Positions 53,356-64,000 of a stretch of 64,000 nt of DNA are shown one piece after another. Position 1 is the first letter of the stretch. The number at the start of each line of letters is the position of its first letter. Where the stretch lies: contig NZ_CP066203.1 of assembly GCF_017310545.1 (NCBI RefSeq), positions 2,046,001-2,110,000 of the forward strand. Direction: 5' to 3'. Source of the stretch: Methylacidimicrobium sp. B4. GTDB lineage: Bacteria > Verrucomicrobiota > Verrucomicrobiia > Methylacidiphilales > Methylacidiphilaceae. Below the pieces are notes generated by a model. That model searched no databases. It worked only from the letters and a program-made list of their open reading frames with translations, and was not told where the DNA came from. The position numbers were made by a program, and so were the translations under genes.

Positions 53356-54168
53356 ATGAGAAGGAAAGTTCGATCGTCGGCCAGGGTGCTGCGCTGGAAG
53401 GCTTCGGGTCTCCCGAGCGGAGTGGCGGCAGCTCCCTCCCCGGGAGCATCGGATCTCGTGCAGCAAGAGCTCCCGCTCAAGGAAAGTACGGCGGGACTGC
53501 GGGTGATCACGGTCATCCTCGCCGTCATGCTCCTTCACGTGCTCTTCATCGGAGGCATCGCCCTCTACAATCTCCTGGGCGGGGGAGGAAAATCGGCTCG
53601 AGGCGGAAGCGCGGGACCGAAGAGCCCGGCGGTCCTCGATGAGTCGCGCGAGCGACCGGTGCAAAAGCCGCGGGAGGAAGTGTCGGCAACGGTCGCGCCC
53701 CCGTCCTCGCCCTCCGTGCGTTCCCGCCGGGGCGGAGGGAAGGGGCAGGGCGAGGCTTCTCCGTTGTCGAACGCCGAGGAGACGGGGCGGAAGAAGGGAG
53801 GCAAGAGGCGGCTCCGGCGGGTCTCCGCCGAAGAGGACGGGGAGGAAGCCAACCCCTCGAAGATGGCTCCTGCGAACCGGCAGCGGACGGAGGAAGCTCG
53901 CGATGCGGCGCAGACGTCCTTGCCTGCCCGATTGCAGGACCCGTCGGCGGAGCCGTCCGCTTCCGCTGCGGGTGGTTCCGGCGTTTACCACGTGGTCCGC
54001 GGCGATACCCTCTGGCGGATCGCTCGCCGCTTCCACGTCGGGCTCGACGATCTGATGACCCTCAACCGGCTGACTCTCGCCAGCAAGCTCCACATCGGAC
54101 AGGAGCTTCGGATCCCTGCGGCGAAGGCGAGCCGTGCTCGCCGCAGCGGCGAAGCTGCGGGCGGATAA
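53356..54168 (+). CDS. LysM-domain single-pass membrane protein in the usual murD position
   Basis: 270 residues with GAGGAG before the ATG. One membrane segment (about 51-72, VITVILAVMLLHVLFIGGIALY) is followed by a long low-complexity charged linker (about 75-200) and a C-terminal LysM domain (about 212-260, YHVVRGDTLWRIARRFHVGL and LHIGQELRIP). It probably anchors in the inner membrane and binds peptidoglycan. In most dcw clusters murD sits between mraY and ftsW; this gene is there instead and has no ligase motifs. It may be a divisome or cell-wall accessory factor; that is inference. Confidence 0.82.
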   Translation: MRRKVRSSARVLRWKASGLPSGVAAAPSPGASDLVQQELPLKESTAGLRVITVILAVMLLHVLFIGGIALYNLLGGGGKSARGGSAGPKSPAVLDESRERPVQKPREEVSATVAPPSSPSVRSRRGGGKGQGEASPLSNAEETGRKKGGKRRLRRVSAEEDGEEANPSKMAPANRQRTEEARDAAQTSLPARLQDPSAEPSASAAGGSGVYHVVRGDTLWRIARRFHVGLDDLMTLNRLTLASKLHIGQELRIPAAKASRARRSGEAAGG

Positions 54169-58739: not shown

Positions 58740-59644
58740 ACCAGGAGCTTCGGGTGGCGATACTGGAAGGGGGTCCTTCGCACGAAAGGGAAGTTTCCTT
58801 GCGAACGGGAGAGGCCGTGACGGCCGCTTTGCGGCAATTGGGCTACCCGGTCGAGGAGATCGATCCGCGGGATGGGGACGTCCTCCTTCCGGAAGGCACC
58901 GACATCGTCTTTCTCTGCTTGCATGGAACCTTCGGGGAGGACGGACAGGTCCAGAGGCTGCTCCTGCGACGGGGGCTCCCGTTCACGGGCAGCGGTGCCG
59001 ACGCGAGCGAGCGGGCCTTCGATAAGTCGTGGAGCAAGGAAATCTTCCGAAAAGCCGGCGTTCCCACTCCGGATTGGACCCTGGCGCGCTCATCGGTCGA
59101 GCTCCCGCTTGCCCTTCCTTTCGTGATCAAGCCGGCGCGGCAGGGGTCGAGCATCGGGGTCAGCCGGGTTTTCGAGGAGAAGGACTATCCGGAAGCCCTC
59201 GCGCGGGCGACGGCCGAAGATCATCTCGTGGTGGCGGAAGCCTATATCGAGGGACGAGAGCTCACAGTGGGCATCCTGGGGGAAAACGTCCTGCCGATCG
59301 TCGAGATCCGGCCCAAGGCGGGCTTTTACGATTACCGCAACAAGTACACATCCGGGGCTAGCGAATATCTCTGTCCGGCCCCTCTCCCGTCCGACGCGGC
59401 CCAATCGGTCGCCGCAATCGCCCGCGCTGCCTATCGATCGCTCGGTTGCTCGGTCTACGGGAGGGTGGATGTGCTTCTGGACGGAGCCGGGAATCCCTGG
59501 GTTCTGGAGGTGAACACGATTCCCGGAATGACGGAGACCAGCCTCTTCCCGAAAGCGGCCCAGGCGGCCGGAATCGACTTTCCGCAGCTCTGCGAAGAGG
59601 TCCTCCAGCTTTCGTGGATCGAACGGAACCGTCAATCGAGATGA
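58736..59644 (+). CDS. ddl: D-alanine--D-alanine ligase
   Basis: 302 residues from GTG overlapping the previous stop (GTGA). The ATP-grasp enzyme motifs are present: EGGPSHEREVSLRTG, CLHGTFGEDGQVQ, FVIKPARQGSSIGV, and metal-binding VLEVNTIPGMTETS. It makes the D-Ala-D-Ala used by MurF. It overlaps ftsQ as ATGA. Confidence 0.94.
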   Translation: MNQELRVAILEGGPSHEREVSLRTGEAVTAALRQLGYPVEEIDPRDGDVLLPEGTDIVFLCLHGTFGEDGQVQRLLLRRGLPFTGSGADASERAFDKSWSKEIFRKAGVPTPDWTLARSSVELPLALPFVIKPARQGSSIGVSRVFEEKDYPEALARATAEDHLVVAEAYIEGRELTVGILGENVLPIVEIRPKAGFYDYRNKYTSGASEYLCPAPLPSDAAQSVAAIARAAYRSLGCSVYGRVDVLLDGAGNPWVLEVNTIPGMTETSLFPKAAQAAGIDFPQLCEEVLQLSWIERNRQSR

Positions 59645-60501
59645 ACCACTTCCGCAAGCCCAACCGGAGAAGGCCCTCGACCCGGAGCGTCCTGCAGACG
59701 AAGGCGGGAGCGCAGCAGCGAAGGCGACTCTTCCTGCGGCGCATCGCCTCGCTTGTGCTGATCCTGGCAGGCCTGGTCAGCATCGCCGGCGGGGGTTACT
59801 ACGTGGGAACCCGATTGGCGCTCCCGTTTTTGTCGACAGACTCGCGCTTTGCCTTGCAGGAAGTCGTGCTCGAGGGCACCGAACGCCTTCCTCGCAAGGA
59901 GATCCTGGCCGCTTCCGGGCTGCGCCTGGGTCAAAACCTGCTGAGCATCTCGCTGCCGGAAGTCTACAAGGCCGTTTCGTCGCTCCCCTATGTGCAGCGA
60001 GCGTCGGTTCGCCGGGAGCTTCCCAATCGCATTGAGATTACCATTGAGGAGCGGGTCCCGCTCGCAAAAGTCTGGACCAAGGCCAAGCGATTTTCCGGCC
60101 AGAGCTTGTGCGTCGATTTCCAAGGGGTGGTCTTCGTAGCGCGCAGGGGTGAGGTCGTTGCCCTTCTCCCCGAGCTCGAAGGCGTGCCGTCCGATGATCT
60201 GGAGATCGGGAATCGGTTGCATACACCGGAATGTCGGGCGGCGCTGCACCTGCTCCGCCTGTTGCAAGGGACCCCTTCCTTGCGCAATCTCCTGGATCCG
60301 GCGAGCCTCGACGTCTCGGGTCATCTCTGCCTGAGGGTTGTCACCCGAGATGGGGTGGGCATCGTCTTGCGTCTGGACCATCTGGAGAGACAGATGAAGA
60401 GGCTGCAAAAGATTTATGTTTTTTCGCAGAGCCGCGGTCGCAAGGTGGCTTCCGTCGATCTGACGCCGGAGCAGAATGTTCCGGTGATTTTCGAGTATTA
60501 G
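59641..60501 (+). CDS. ftsQ: Divisome protein FtsQ
   Basis: 286 residues from ATG. A basic cytoplasmic tail (about 1-33, many Arg) is followed by a membrane segment (about 36-55, IASLVLILAGLVSIAGGGYY) and a POTRA domain (FALQEVVLEGTERLPRKEIL, ending RELPNRIEITIEERVPLA), then the FtsQ beta domain. It bridges cytoplasmic and periplasmic divisome parts. The position between ddl and ftsA is canonical. Confidence 0.9.
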   Translation: MNHFRKPNRRRPSTRSVLQTKAGAQQRRRLFLRRIASLVLILAGLVSIAGGGYYVGTRLALPFLSTDSRFALQEVVLEGTERLPRKEILAASGLRLGQNLLSISLPEVYKAVSSLPYVQRASVRRELPNRIEITIEERVPLAKVWTKAKRFSGQSLCVDFQGVVFVARRGEVVALLPELEGVPSDDLEIGNRLHTPECRAALHLLRLLQGTPSLRNLLDPASLDVSGHLCLRVVTRDGVGIVLRLDHLERQMKRLQKIYVFSQSRGRKVASVDLTPEQNVPVIFEY

Positions 60502-60511
60502 GAGAGCTTCG

Positions 60512-61747
60512 ATGTTCGGCCACAAATCTCGGTCGGTCCTCGTCGGGCTGGAGGCGGGAACCAGCAAGATCAAGGCGGCCGTCGCGGAGCTCAATGGCCA
60601 AGGATCCCTGATTCTCCTCGGAGTGTCCGAGAGCCCTTCGACGCATATTCGGAAGTGCGAGATCACCGACTTCGAGATGACGCAGAAAGCGATCCACCAG
60701 GCGATCCTGGACGCGGAGGCAAAAATGGACGTCTCGATCGGAGAGGTCTACCTGGCGATCTCGGGCGCTCATATTCGCTCCTTCCAAAGCCGCCTTGCCC
60801 TCGATTTGGGGCAGGAAGGGGGGATGATCGAGGAGGGCCATTTGCGCGAGCTGCGCGAGCTGGTGCGGCAGCAAGTCCTGCCGCAGGGGCAGATCTTGCT
60901 CCATTATCTTCTGCAGACCTACATCCTGGACGACGGAACAGCGACGGCGAATCCCGTCGGCCTCTTCTCCCGCCGCCTCATGGCGGACTATCACCTGGTT
61001 TCCGGGATCGCAACGCGTCTCCAGACTACGGTTCACTGCGTGAAGGAGCTCTCGCTTCGGGTGAAGGGGTATGCCCTGTCGAGCTACGCGACCGCCCAGG
61101 CGCTCCTGACCCCGGAGCAGAAGAGCTTCGGATCGGTCGTCATCAACTGCGGAGCGGGAATCACCGATTACATCGTCTACCGGAATGGGTTTGTCGCCCA
61201 TTCGGGAACGCTCGGGGTAGGAGGGGACCACCTGACCAACGATCTCGCGGTCGCCCTGAAGATTCCGTTTCCCCGAGCCGAGGAGCTCAAGAAGGCTCAT
61301 GGCACGGTGGATTTGCGGGAAGAAGTGGCGTATCGCCGTGTCGGCCTGACGGCCGAGGGACCCTACGAGCAGCGATTCGCCCCGATGTCCTTGATCGCGG
61401 AAGTGCTTCAGGCGCGGCAGGCGGAGATCTTCGAGATCATTCGGGAAGACTTGGAAGATCAGCCGTTCTGGGAGGGCTTCTCGGGAACGATCTTCTTGAC
61501 GGGCGGAGGATCCCGGCTCGACGGCATCCAGAAATTGGCGACAAGGATCTTCGACCGGCCCGTGGAGGCCGCAAAGCCACTCGCCTTCGGCGGAGAGGTC
61601 TCCTGCGAGGGGAGGGAGGATTGGACGACCGTGCTGGGTCTGCTACGCTATGCGCGGATCGTGGAAATGCAGGAGAGCGGGGGCGGTCGATGGGACCGTA
61701 TGGGTCGGTCGCTACGTCGATTCCTTTCAGGGATCCGGTTCTTTTAG
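60512..61747 (+). CDS. ftsA: Cell-division ATPase-like protein FtsA
   Basis: 411 residues with GGAGAGC before the ATG. The actin-like fold is clear (AISGAHIRSFQSR, the subdomain 1C region, FLTGGGSRLDGIQKLATRIF), and the C-terminal SLRRFLSGIRFF is the membrane-binding amphipathic helix. Two nucleotide motifs differ from most FtsAs: phosphate loop 1 is GLEAGTSK (residues 12-19) instead of GLDIGTSK, and loop 2 is NCGAGITD (212-219) instead of DIGGGTTD. FtsA tethers FtsZ to the membrane. Confidence 0.9.
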   Translation: MFGHKSRSVLVGLEAGTSKIKAAVAELNGQGSLILLGVSESPSTHIRKCEITDFEMTQKAIHQAILDAEAKMDVSIGEVYLAISGAHIRSFQSRLALDLGQEGGMIEEGHLRELRELVRQQVLPQGQILLHYLLQTYILDDGTATANPVGLFSRRLMADYHLVSGIATRLQTTVHCVKELSLRVKGYALSSYATAQALLTPEQKSFGSVVINCGAGITDYIVYRNGFVAHSGTLGVGGDHLTNDLAVALKIPFPRAEELKKAHGTVDLREEVAYRRVGLTAEGPYEQRFAPMSLIAEVLQARQAEIFEIIREDLEDQPFWEGFSGTIFLTGGGSRLDGIQKLATRIFDRPVEAAKPLAFGGEVSCEGREDWTTVLGLLRYARIVEMQESGGGRWDRMGRSLRRFLSGIRFF

Positions 61748-61838: not shown

Positions 61839-62981
61839 ATGAGCGCGCGCATCGTGGGAGCGGGGGCGGTGGGGATCGATGTGGTCGACGAGTGGATCCT
61901 GCTCTCGGATGGCCCGACGGGGAGCCTTGCCTGCGACGGGGAGGCTTCCGCGGTCGAGGGGTCGCTCGCGTTGGAAAAGCTCCTCCTTGCCCCCGACCTC
62001 GCGAGCGGGCTCGGCTGCTTCGGCGGCCGCGATCTTGCTTGGCGGATGGTGGGGCAGGAAAATCAGAGGCTCGAAGCGCTGCTCAAGGACTGTTCCCGCT
62101 TGTTGATCGTGACCGGGCTTGCCGGAGCAACCGGCGCCACGGTCACGGAAGCCCTCGCCCTGAAAGCCGTGGAGCGGGAGATCTCGACTACGGTTTTTGC
62201 GATCCTCCCCTTTCCTTTCGAGACGGAGGAGCGACAGGCAGCGGCGCAGGCGACCCGTGACGCGCTCCCGGCCGAGGCTTCCCTCTTCCTTTTTCCACCA
62301 CCGACGCCCTCAGAAGAGCCCACCCCGGACGTCACCGCGGTGCGGCGAAGGTTGCGCGAATTCCAGAGTGCGCTCGCCCAATGGGTCGATGTCTGGTCGG
62401 GGATGGCTCGCGGGGTCGTTTCCCCTGCCCATTGGGGAGGCAGGGCGGAGACTTCTCCATTTACCGTCGCCGGGGCGATCGAGGATTGCCAGCTTTTCGC
62501 CGGAGCCGGACCGCGGCTCGACCTCTCCCTGCTGGGATTCCTGGAGGCGAGCGGATTCCGGCAAGCGGCCGAGAAGGCCGATCGTTGCCTGGCTTCCATT
62601 GAGGCACACGACGAGGTTTCTGGCGGGGAGGAGGAGCTCGCCAACCGCCTGCAAAAATTTCTCCCGAAGCGAGCACACCTCGACGTTCTCCGTCGAACCG
62701 CGGCTCGCTCGACAGAAAGCCGGATCTTGCTTCTCGTGGGACGAGACGCTTCCCGGCATCCGAAGGCGGTGTACCCGGAGCGGGATGAGCGGGAGCCGGC
62801 CCCGGAGCCGGAGCGAGCTCCGATCCGGCGCGTCTTGGCGGAACCGGAGGGGCGGCTTGTCCCTGCCTCCCAGGACGGCACCCCCTTTGCGAAAACCGCA
62901 GCTACCCTGCACAAAGGCGAAAATCTCGATATTCCTGCGTTCCGGCGGAGGAAGAGGGAGCCGGGCCTGGCGAGGGAATGA
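61839..62981 (+). CDS. ftsZ: Highly divergent FtsZ-like protein
   Basis: 380 residues with GAGGAGAGAGG before the ATG, 91 bases after ftsA. The FtsZ layout can be followed by eye: T1-like VGAGAVGIDVVD (6-17), GLGCFGGRDLAWRM (58-70), T4 region IVTGLAGATGATVTEALALK (90-109), PFPFETEERQAAAQ (124-137), a variable linker (about 300-360) and a C-terminal LDIPAFRRR (363-371), matching the FtsZ peptide that binds FtsA. Yet the tubulin signature GGGTGTG reads GLAGATGA, and the T7 loop (NLDFADV in normal FtsZ) appears as SPAHWGG near 195-201, without the catalytic Asp residues. GTP hydrolysis is therefore in doubt. No other ftsZ is present. Confidence 0.75.
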   Translation: MSARIVGAGAVGIDVVDEWILLSDGPTGSLACDGEASAVEGSLALEKLLLAPDLASGLGCFGGRDLAWRMVGQENQRLEALLKDCSRLLIVTGLAGATGATVTEALALKAVEREISTTVFAILPFPFETEERQAAAQATRDALPAEASLFLFPPPTPSEEPTPDVTAVRRRLREFQSALAQWVDVWSGMARGVVSPAHWGGRAETSPFTVAGAIEDCQLFAGAGPRLDLSLLGFLEASGFRQAAEKADRCLASIEAHDEVSGGEEELANRLQKFLPKRAHLDVLRRTAARSTESRILLLVGRDASRHPKAVYPERDEREPAPEPERAPIRRVLAEPEGRLVPASQDGTPFAKTAATLHKGENLDIPAFRRRKREPGLARE

Positions 62982-63064: not shown

Positions 63065-64000
63065 ATGGGAAGCAATCGGTGGCGAGACGCAGGGAGGGAA
63101 GGGGGGCTGCCGTCTTTCGAGAAGCCGGTCCGCCAAAAACGACTCGAAAAAGGTCTTTCGCAAAAAGAAGTGGCCGGCCGGGTCGGGATCACTCGGCAGG
63201 CTCTTCATTCGATCGAAACGGGCCGCTACGTGCCGAATACCTTGGTTGCGATCCGGCTTGCCCGGACGCTCGGAAGCCGGGTGGAGGAACTCTTTCCCTG
63301 CTGGGAGGGGATCGATCTTCCTTTTTCGCCGGGTCCGTTTCCCCAGGTGGAAGGCGGCAGGCGCGTGGTCTTGGCGGATGTGCGTGGCCGTCTGATCCCT
63401 TACCCGGTGGAGCGGCTCGAAGAGGGCTCCGGCACCTTCGTGGCAGCGGACGCGCTCCTCCCAGGGGGAGATCGGGGGGGCCAGTGGACTCTTCTCTCCT
63501 CCTCCACCGCCATTCAGAGAAGCGCCCTGTTCCTTGGCTGCGACCCGGGCATCGGCCTTCTCGTCGAGAAAATCGCCACCGTGAGCCGGGATCGACTCCG
63601 CTGGATCTCCTGCGCCAGCGAAACGGCGGCGGCCGCGCTTGGCGCCGGGCAGGCGCATCTGGCGGGCTGCCATCTTCCCGGAGGGGAGCTGCGCAACAAC
63701 CGGGTGCTCGCCCGGGAAGCCTTGCAGGGATTCGGCGGAATCTTGATTCGCTTCGCGCAGTGGGAGGAAGGACTGGCTGTGGCGCGAGGGAACCCGCTGG
63801 GCATTCGCTCGGTGGAGGACCTGGCTCATCCCGGCTTGCGGTTCCTCAATCGGGACGCCGGATCCGGGAGCCGGGCTCTTCTGGACGACCTGCTCCGCAA
63901 GCGGGGGATTCCCGGAAGTGCGATTCCGGGATATGAGAAATCGGCCCGCAACCCGGTGGCGGCCGCGCGCGCCGTGGCTTTCGGGGTGGCGGATGCCTCC
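63065..64000 (+). CDS. XRE-type regulator fused to a molybdate-binding-like (COG1910) domain, 3' end outside window
   Basis: 312 residues are visible from the ATG at 63065; no stop before the window end. Residues about 23-77 form an XRE helix-turn-helix (KRLEKGLSQKEVAGRVGITR, IETGRYVPNTLVAIRLARTL). A substrate-binding-protein-like domain follows, with LFLGCDPGIGLLVEKIA, GQAHLAGCHL, RGNPLGIRSVEDL and FLNRDAGSGSRALLDDLL, as in ModE-like or COG1910 regulators that sense molybdate or tungstate. It likely controls metal-oxyanion uptake or molybdoenzyme genes. Promoters and targets are not visible. Confidence 0.8.
   Translation, partial: MGSNRWRDAGREGGLPSFEKPVRQKRLEKGLSQKEVAGRVGITRQALHSIETGRYVPNTLVAIRLARTLGSRVEELFPCWEGIDLPFSPGPFPQVEGGRRVVLADVRGRLIPYPVERLEEGSGTFVAADALLPGGDRGGQWTLLSSSTAIQRSALFLGCDPGIGLLVEKIATVSRDRLRWISCASETAAAALGAGQAHLAGCHLPGGELRNNRVLAREALQGFGGILIRFAQWEEGLAVARGNPLGIRSVEDLAHPGLRFLNRDAGSGSRALLDDLLRKRGIPGSAIPGYEKSARNPVAAARAVAFGVADAS

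Follow-up and report, generated by a model that had tools for sequence, protein, structure and literature searches.

Methylacidimicrobium sp. B4 keeps a single, selected FtsZ that has lost the T7 catalytic motif and retains its C-terminal tail

Nearly all bacteria are believed to rely on GTP-powered FtsZ dynamics for division. The gene at 61839-62981 of the window (the whole stretch of 64,000 nucleotides analyzed here) encodes the only FtsZ of its host, an acidophilic methanotroph of the Methylacidimicrobium type within the Verrucomicrobiota; the gene has been inherited vertically, and its product has no NxDxxD motif in the T7 loop. Purifying selection and its presence in every genome of the family show that ftsZ is kept as a functional gene. 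Judging from the residues lost and kept, the best reading, and one we consider probable, is that the protein acts as a non- or barely hydrolyzing FtsZ scaffold recruited by FtsA.

The gene and its immediate upstream neighbors are:

59446..60501, + strand: ftsQ, the next gene upstream of ftsA (the listed ORF opens in-frame upstream; true start uncertain)
60512..61747, + strand: ftsA, conventional, 411 aa (TIGR01174, 268 bits)
61839..62981, + strand: ftsZ, sole FtsZ of the genome, 380 aa (profile searches, fold match)

By ORF inspection the 380-aa frame runs from an ATG to a stop codon; it starts 91 nt beyond the ftsA stop codon, behind a purine-rich ribosome-binding sequence (gaggagagagg) rated good. 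The ftsA product carries a basic/hydrophobic C-terminal tail that resembles a membrane-targeting helix. On the + strand, the dcw cluster in the window is intact and runs murF, mraY, a LysM protein, ftsW, murG, a murC-murB fusion, ddl, ftsQ, ftsA and then ftsZ (upstream names were given from inspection, the V. spinosum order and matches among relatives). The order murG-murCB-ddl-ftsQ-ftsA-ftsZ is common to the window and its relatives, and ftsA adjoins ftsZ at 162 of 167 loci of the class. The gene thus occupies the dcw position of ftsZ, behind ftsQ-ftsA, and the original prediction of a 380-residue FtsZ at the canonical site behind ftsA agrees with the frame, with this gene order and with the profile comparison described below. 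Inspection also placed a LysM-domain protein at window positions 53356-54168, between mraY and ftsW in the usual place of murD, and, 3' of ftsZ at 63068-64000 (running off the window), a frame that joins an XRE-type helix-turn-helix to a downstream domain resembling a substrate-binding protein.

The host genome is closed (a single contig of 2,371,269 bases, rated 99.96% complete) and contains one PF00091 gene, namely this ftsZ. A second, weak match is a Tubulin_2 (FtsZ-like 1, PF13809) protein with a 1047-residue frame outside the dcw cluster; the check for a second ftsZ proposed with the original prediction turned up just this remote protein, so a canonical ftsZ elsewhere in the closed 2.37-Mb genome is ruled out. 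A pseudogene or wrong frame is ruled out by the open frames, the conserved start and a dN/dS of about 0.25 in five genus members; a single-strain sequencing artefact by the agreement of all relatives; and horizontal replacement or an unrelated protein by locus, profile and fold. Two strong MreB homologs are encoded at genome positions 978580 and 1754737, and no MinD above cut-off was found in the genome.

The product matches PF00091 with an E-value of 1.7e-9 (38.7 bits against a curated cut-off of 33) and solved FtsZ in phmmer with an E-value of 1e-8. Alignment of the family profile with a canonical FtsZ profile (hhalign) gave an E-value of 6.7e-30 over 360 columns, tail included, and with a profile of the genus alone the E-value was 1e-17 for canonical FtsZ and 3.8e-35 for the rest of the order; the assignment to FtsZ made from the letters of the gene is borne out by these searches. 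The score with the FtsZ equivalog TIGR00065 is 24.4 bits, far under the cut-off of 295.2, and FtsZ_C (PF12327) is above cut-off in none of the 13 family genomes. We read both failures as the divergence of a true ortholog, because the locus, the profile-profile alignment and the fold all identify the protein as FtsZ. Fold was assessed with AlphaFold2 models of low confidence, which serve for fold alone. All 50 of the top 50 solved structures matched by the low-confidence window model (seven-sequence input, pLDDT 57.7, pTM 0.60) in Foldseek are FtsZ (best E-value 1.1e-13, about 315 columns), and the top 50 for the likewise low-confidence model of Methylacidiphilum FtsZ (pLDDT 55.0 overall, the N-domain better modelled) comprise 48 FtsZ and 2 CetZ (best E-value 3.1e-17). 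A two-subdomain FtsZ fold was recovered in the low-confidence window model, contrary to the refuting outcome named at the outset (no tubulin/FtsZ fold), with a predicted strand-helix order in the C-terminal half (S7-H9-S8-H10-S9-S10) that follows FtsZ; the protein most likely folds as FtsZ still.

Against this background of a recognizable fold, the parts of the protein have fared very differently (region boundaries were guided by the model and the alignment):

61845..61880, + strand: residues 3-14, strand 1 and T1 loop (RIVGAGAVGID), with the phosphate-loop glycines G9 and G12 kept
62115..62138, + strand: residues 93-100 (GLAGATGA), the T4 "tubulin signature", with G96, T98 and G99 kept
62208..62234, + strand: residues 124-132 (PFPFETEER), T5/H5, with E128 and R132 (E. 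coli E138 and R142) kept
62415..62474, + strand: residues 193-212, T7-loop equivalent, with no N/D catalytic residues and fast evolving
62475..62747, + strand: residues 213-303, degenerate C-terminal subdomain, its sequence near random between genera
62748..62882, + strand: residues 304-348, unstructured linker
62883..62951, + strand: residues 349-371, conserved C-terminal tail with the putative FtsA-binding peptide

The T4 and T7 letters had been reported correctly, GLAGATGA at 93-100 and SPAHWGG at 195-201 without NxDxxD; aligned to relatives, the T7 equivalent widens to residues 193-212 or so. The loss of NxDxxD in the window protein is independent of any alignment, since residues 185-215 hold no Asp at all. 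Every genus member lacks the motif: in E. coli numbering N207 has become P or S, D209 and D212 are absent, and the T2 residues that face T7 are replaced as well (N43D, D45E, Q47S/C). T4 reads AGATGAT in place of GGGTG[TS]G, with A95, A97 and T101 standing for glycines and the equivalents of G106, T108 and G109 retained. Further losses in the genus are G71 (to F), G105, G107 (5/6) and G111, and nucleotide-contacting positions have changed at N165, F182 (to L) and N186 (to Q/H). Kept in the genus are G19, G22, L68, G69, the G at 72, G103, G106, T108 (5/6), G109, P134, F135, E138 and R142. The assignment of residues to base and ribose contacts (with F182 and N186, for example, recognizing guanine) follows FtsZ structures in general. 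The claim that the protein had "lost GTPase signature residues" holds, then, for the T7 catalytic loop and for base recognition; the phosphate and ribose positions (G19, G22, G106, T108, G109, E138, R142) are largely kept.

The earlier reading did not notice that the T7 loss is family-wide and lies within a wider erosion. An open ftsZ is present in 13/13 family genomes, Methylacidiphilum included, save for a contig-end truncation in one of them. A nine-sequence alignment searched against the genome collection found six named loci, and the named relatives are Methylacidimicrobium cyclopophantes, M. tartarophylax, strain LP2A (FtsZ 80% identical) and, more distantly, Methylacidiphilum. NxDxxD occurs in 0/12 of the family sequences tabulated for the T7 region; one Methylacidiphilum FtsZ has an Asp in the D212 column, but the loop around it cannot be aligned, and we therefore do not count this Asp as a catalytic residue that has been kept. 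Elsewhere in the order (class and order follow the taxonomy of the collection, in which families carry codes) N207 is lost throughout, D209 is lost in all families but f8, and D212 remains in f2, f3, f4, f7 and f8. Across 167 FtsZs of the class (loci within L003-L192), both aspartates are found in 29, D212 only in 65, D209 only in 40 and neither in 33, a tally that is alignment-dependent for the most divergent rows. The Akkermansia-like and Prosthecobacter-type families have lost D209 (GLDDL) and the large family f19 has lost D212 (LDFATL), and variation in T7 extends to a few loci in other classes of the phylum. Outside the order, family f32 (L066-L070, L072, L073) shows a parallel degradation, with T4 GLGGETGS, T7 GPVKITRTD or GPVRINRSH, a shortened T3 and an intact tail; the tail motif is conserved nearly everywhere among the relatives. 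On an FtsA tree (a quick tree with many weak branches) there are at least 13 changes to the state in which both aspartates are lost, so that T7 aspartate losses have probably been repeated within the class. The family-wide loss of T7 stands at the far end of an erosion that runs through the order and the class.

Selection along the gene is uneven. Ten pairwise comparisons among five genus members put dN/dS of ftsZ at about 0.25 (range about 0.24-0.34; Nei-Gojobori, with some pairs near saturation at dS up to 1.3), and that of ftsA, which is 85-91% identical within the genus, is about 0.06-0.18. By region, pN/pS (ratios of uncorrected proportions) is 0.20 in the N-domain (residues 1-130), 0.42 in residues 131-192, 0.56 in the T7 region, 0.54 in the C-domain, 0.83 in the linker and 0.07 in the C-terminal tail, the most constrained part of ftsZ. 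Among pairs matched at an FtsA identity of 0.50-0.62, FtsZ identity in N-domain, C-domain and tail is 55%, 47% and 69% for class pairs, 37%, 34% and 69% for other within-order pairs and 37%, 12% and 50% for between-genus pairs of the family. From this pattern we conclude that ftsZ is functional, with the N-domain and tail maintained and the C-domain sequence and catalytic loop not. The peptide LDIPAFRRR lies at residues 363-371 as first reported and, by sequence and by the pN/pS of the tail, is consistent with an FtsA-binding type; selection for divisome interaction, which had been proposed from it, agrees with the tail and accounts for only part of the constraint, as the N-domain is also strongly conserved.

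How might such a protein work? The T1/T4 phosphate loops, together with E128 and R132, may still bind a nucleotide. With the trans-acting residues of T7 (N207, D209, D212) and the T2 residues opposite them (N43, D45, Q47) all replaced, the protein would be unable to hydrolyze GTP by the FtsZ mechanism. In S. aureus FtsZ the composite active site is formed by T7 N208, D210 and D213 with D46, Q48 and R143, and D46A, N208L, D210N and D213N suppress assembly (PMC8936486); E. coli FtsZ D212G has less than 1% GTPase, forms static rings (PMC7320174) and supports division only with genomic suppressors (PMC5405962). The window FtsZ would most likely be a slow, static or non-polymerizing scaffold that docks through its conserved tail onto membrane FtsA, and so docked it could mark the division site or recruit the septal peptidoglycan machinery (FtsQ, FtsW and partners); dynamics, if any, would come from FtsA or the wall-synthesis enzymes and not from GTP-driven treadmilling. 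Since the hydrolyzing machinery is erased, the tail almost frozen and the gene the sole copy, the host may divide without GTP-powered dynamics, in which case treadmilling would be absent. A functional FtsZ of this kind would need compensation elsewhere, because the T7 mutants of S. aureus do not polymerize in vitro and E. coli D212G depends on suppressors. A broader proposal, which we put forward tentatively as a serious candidate, is that the whole family divides with an FtsZ devoid of any GTPase cycle, as a static filament or scaffold, with FtsA and the wall synthases supplying positioning and dynamics.

A nucleotide cycle that still runs, with its catalysis rearranged, would likewise explain why the N-domain is so strongly conserved. 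It is conceivable, if unlikely, that an assembly-dependent NTPase persists whose active site has been rebuilt from other acidic residues (e.g., E204 or D216 near the former T7) or with a partner protein, possibly for a different nucleotide, because the guanine-recognizing F182 and N186 have changed too. Besides the N-domain (pN/pS 0.20), the invariance in the genus of the E138 and R142 equivalents, R142 being Arg finger-like, speaks for such a site, as does the retention of just one of the two aspartates in other Verrucomicrobiota; against it, the T7-equivalent region ranks with the parts that evolve fastest, the genus has no invariant acidic residue at any N-x-D-x-x-D-like position, and D45 and Q47 of T2 facing T7 are replaced as well.

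We regard it as improbable that ftsZ is a remnant on its way to loss, in a cell whose division no longer depends on it (being led by MreB or FtsK, as it is in Chlamydiae and Planctomycetes), and that the gene retains no more than a minor accessory role connected with FtsA. The strong acceleration of ftsZ in the family, two MreB genes with no MinD above cut-off in the genome, and the complete loss of FtsZ in neighboring PVC phyla (PMC5147048, PMC12283558) would suit such a history, but the frame is open in 13/13 family genomes apart from the one contig-end truncation, purifying selection is evident and, on the tail, almost absolute, and ftsA is well conserved in the genus, whereas Chlamydiae and Planctomycetes have mostly lost ftsA along with ftsZ. 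The selection pattern and the conserved FtsA lead us to disfavor it. A nucleotide-free structural derivative, either a pure FtsA-binding adaptor or a regulator of FtsA polymers, is quite unlikely: the genus has lost its counterparts of F182, N186 and N165 along with several positions in T2 and T4, which points that way, but G19, G22, G106, G109 and the ribose-region E138 are invariant, beyond what a pure adaptor would need.

We return to the scaffold recruited by FtsA and to its place among known proteins. Like canonical FtsZ (TIGR00065; PF00091 plus PF12327), the window gene follows ftsA and its product has the two-subdomain fold overall, the T1/T4 phosphate glycines, E138, R142, a flexible linker and an LDxPxFxRR C-terminal peptide; unlike it, the product lacks the T7 NxDxxD, has a replaced T2 and a C-domain unrecognizable to PF12327, and reaches only 24 bits with TIGR00065. 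Methylacidiphilum FtsZ (M. infernorum) is the nearest described relative, from the same family and locus, with the same tail and an equally degraded T7 and C-domain; identity is only about 26%, and in the window genus the changes in T4 (AGATGAT) and in base recognition (F182L, N186Q) go further. The FtsZs of the Verrucomicrobium/Prosthecobacter and Akkermansia type (Yee et al., 2007, PMC1845146) share tail and locus and show a partial T7 erosion with one Asp lost, but keep an intact T4 (GGGTGSG), usually one T7 Asp, and a recognizable C-domain. The laboratory GTPase mutant E. coli FtsZ D212G also misses a T7 Asp, as a single substitution in an otherwise normal protein that complements only with suppressors (PMC5405962).

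That verrucomicrobial FtsZs are among the most divergent bacterial ones is already known (PMC9871819; PMC1845146). Hou et al. (2008, PMC2474590) noted "accelerated evolution" of M. infernorum ftsZ without showing the data, and a referee's comment on that paper refers to an FtsZ homolog of Lentisphaera as non-functional. In the open literature searched, we found no description of T7 loss or of a pseudo-GTPase FtsZ in Verrucomicrobia. Work on whether division needs FtsZ GTP hydrolysis and treadmilling has so far relied largely on mutants from a handful of model species. In the closed genome studied here, and throughout its genus and family, a single selected FtsZ with an erased loop has been kept, which makes a natural protein set for biochemistry, and within the class the steps in between can be seen: loss of one aspartate, then of the second, and finally of the C-domain. 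If the family does divide without hydrolysis, nature would have shown that FtsZ can do without hydrolysis and treadmilling, by way of a stepwise erosion readable across living relatives. These proteins may also represent a stage between division driven by FtsZ and the division without FtsZ seen in Chlamydiae and Planctomycetes.

An FtsZ without a canonical T7 can be essential, to go by family f33 (Prosthecobacter-type), in which D209 is absent from 6/6 sampled FtsZs and to which V. spinosum, placed there indirectly, probably belongs; its ftsZ is essential by TraDIS (PMC12283558). Four f33 genomes (L017-L020) also carry tandem BtubA/BtubB-like bacterial tubulin genes, with two sets in one of them (G126).

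The other tubulin-superfamily protein of the B4 genome, the Tubulin_2 (FtsZ-like 1) protein, differs from the window FtsZ in locus, size (1047-aa frame) and family, and the window FtsZ has no PF13809 match. The FtsZ-like 1 family was described by Makarova and Koonin (2010, PMC2875224), with M. infernorum among its members. In B4 the match lies at genome positions 1729367-1730386, and it is conserved in Methylacidimicrobium and most Methylacidiphilum genomes.
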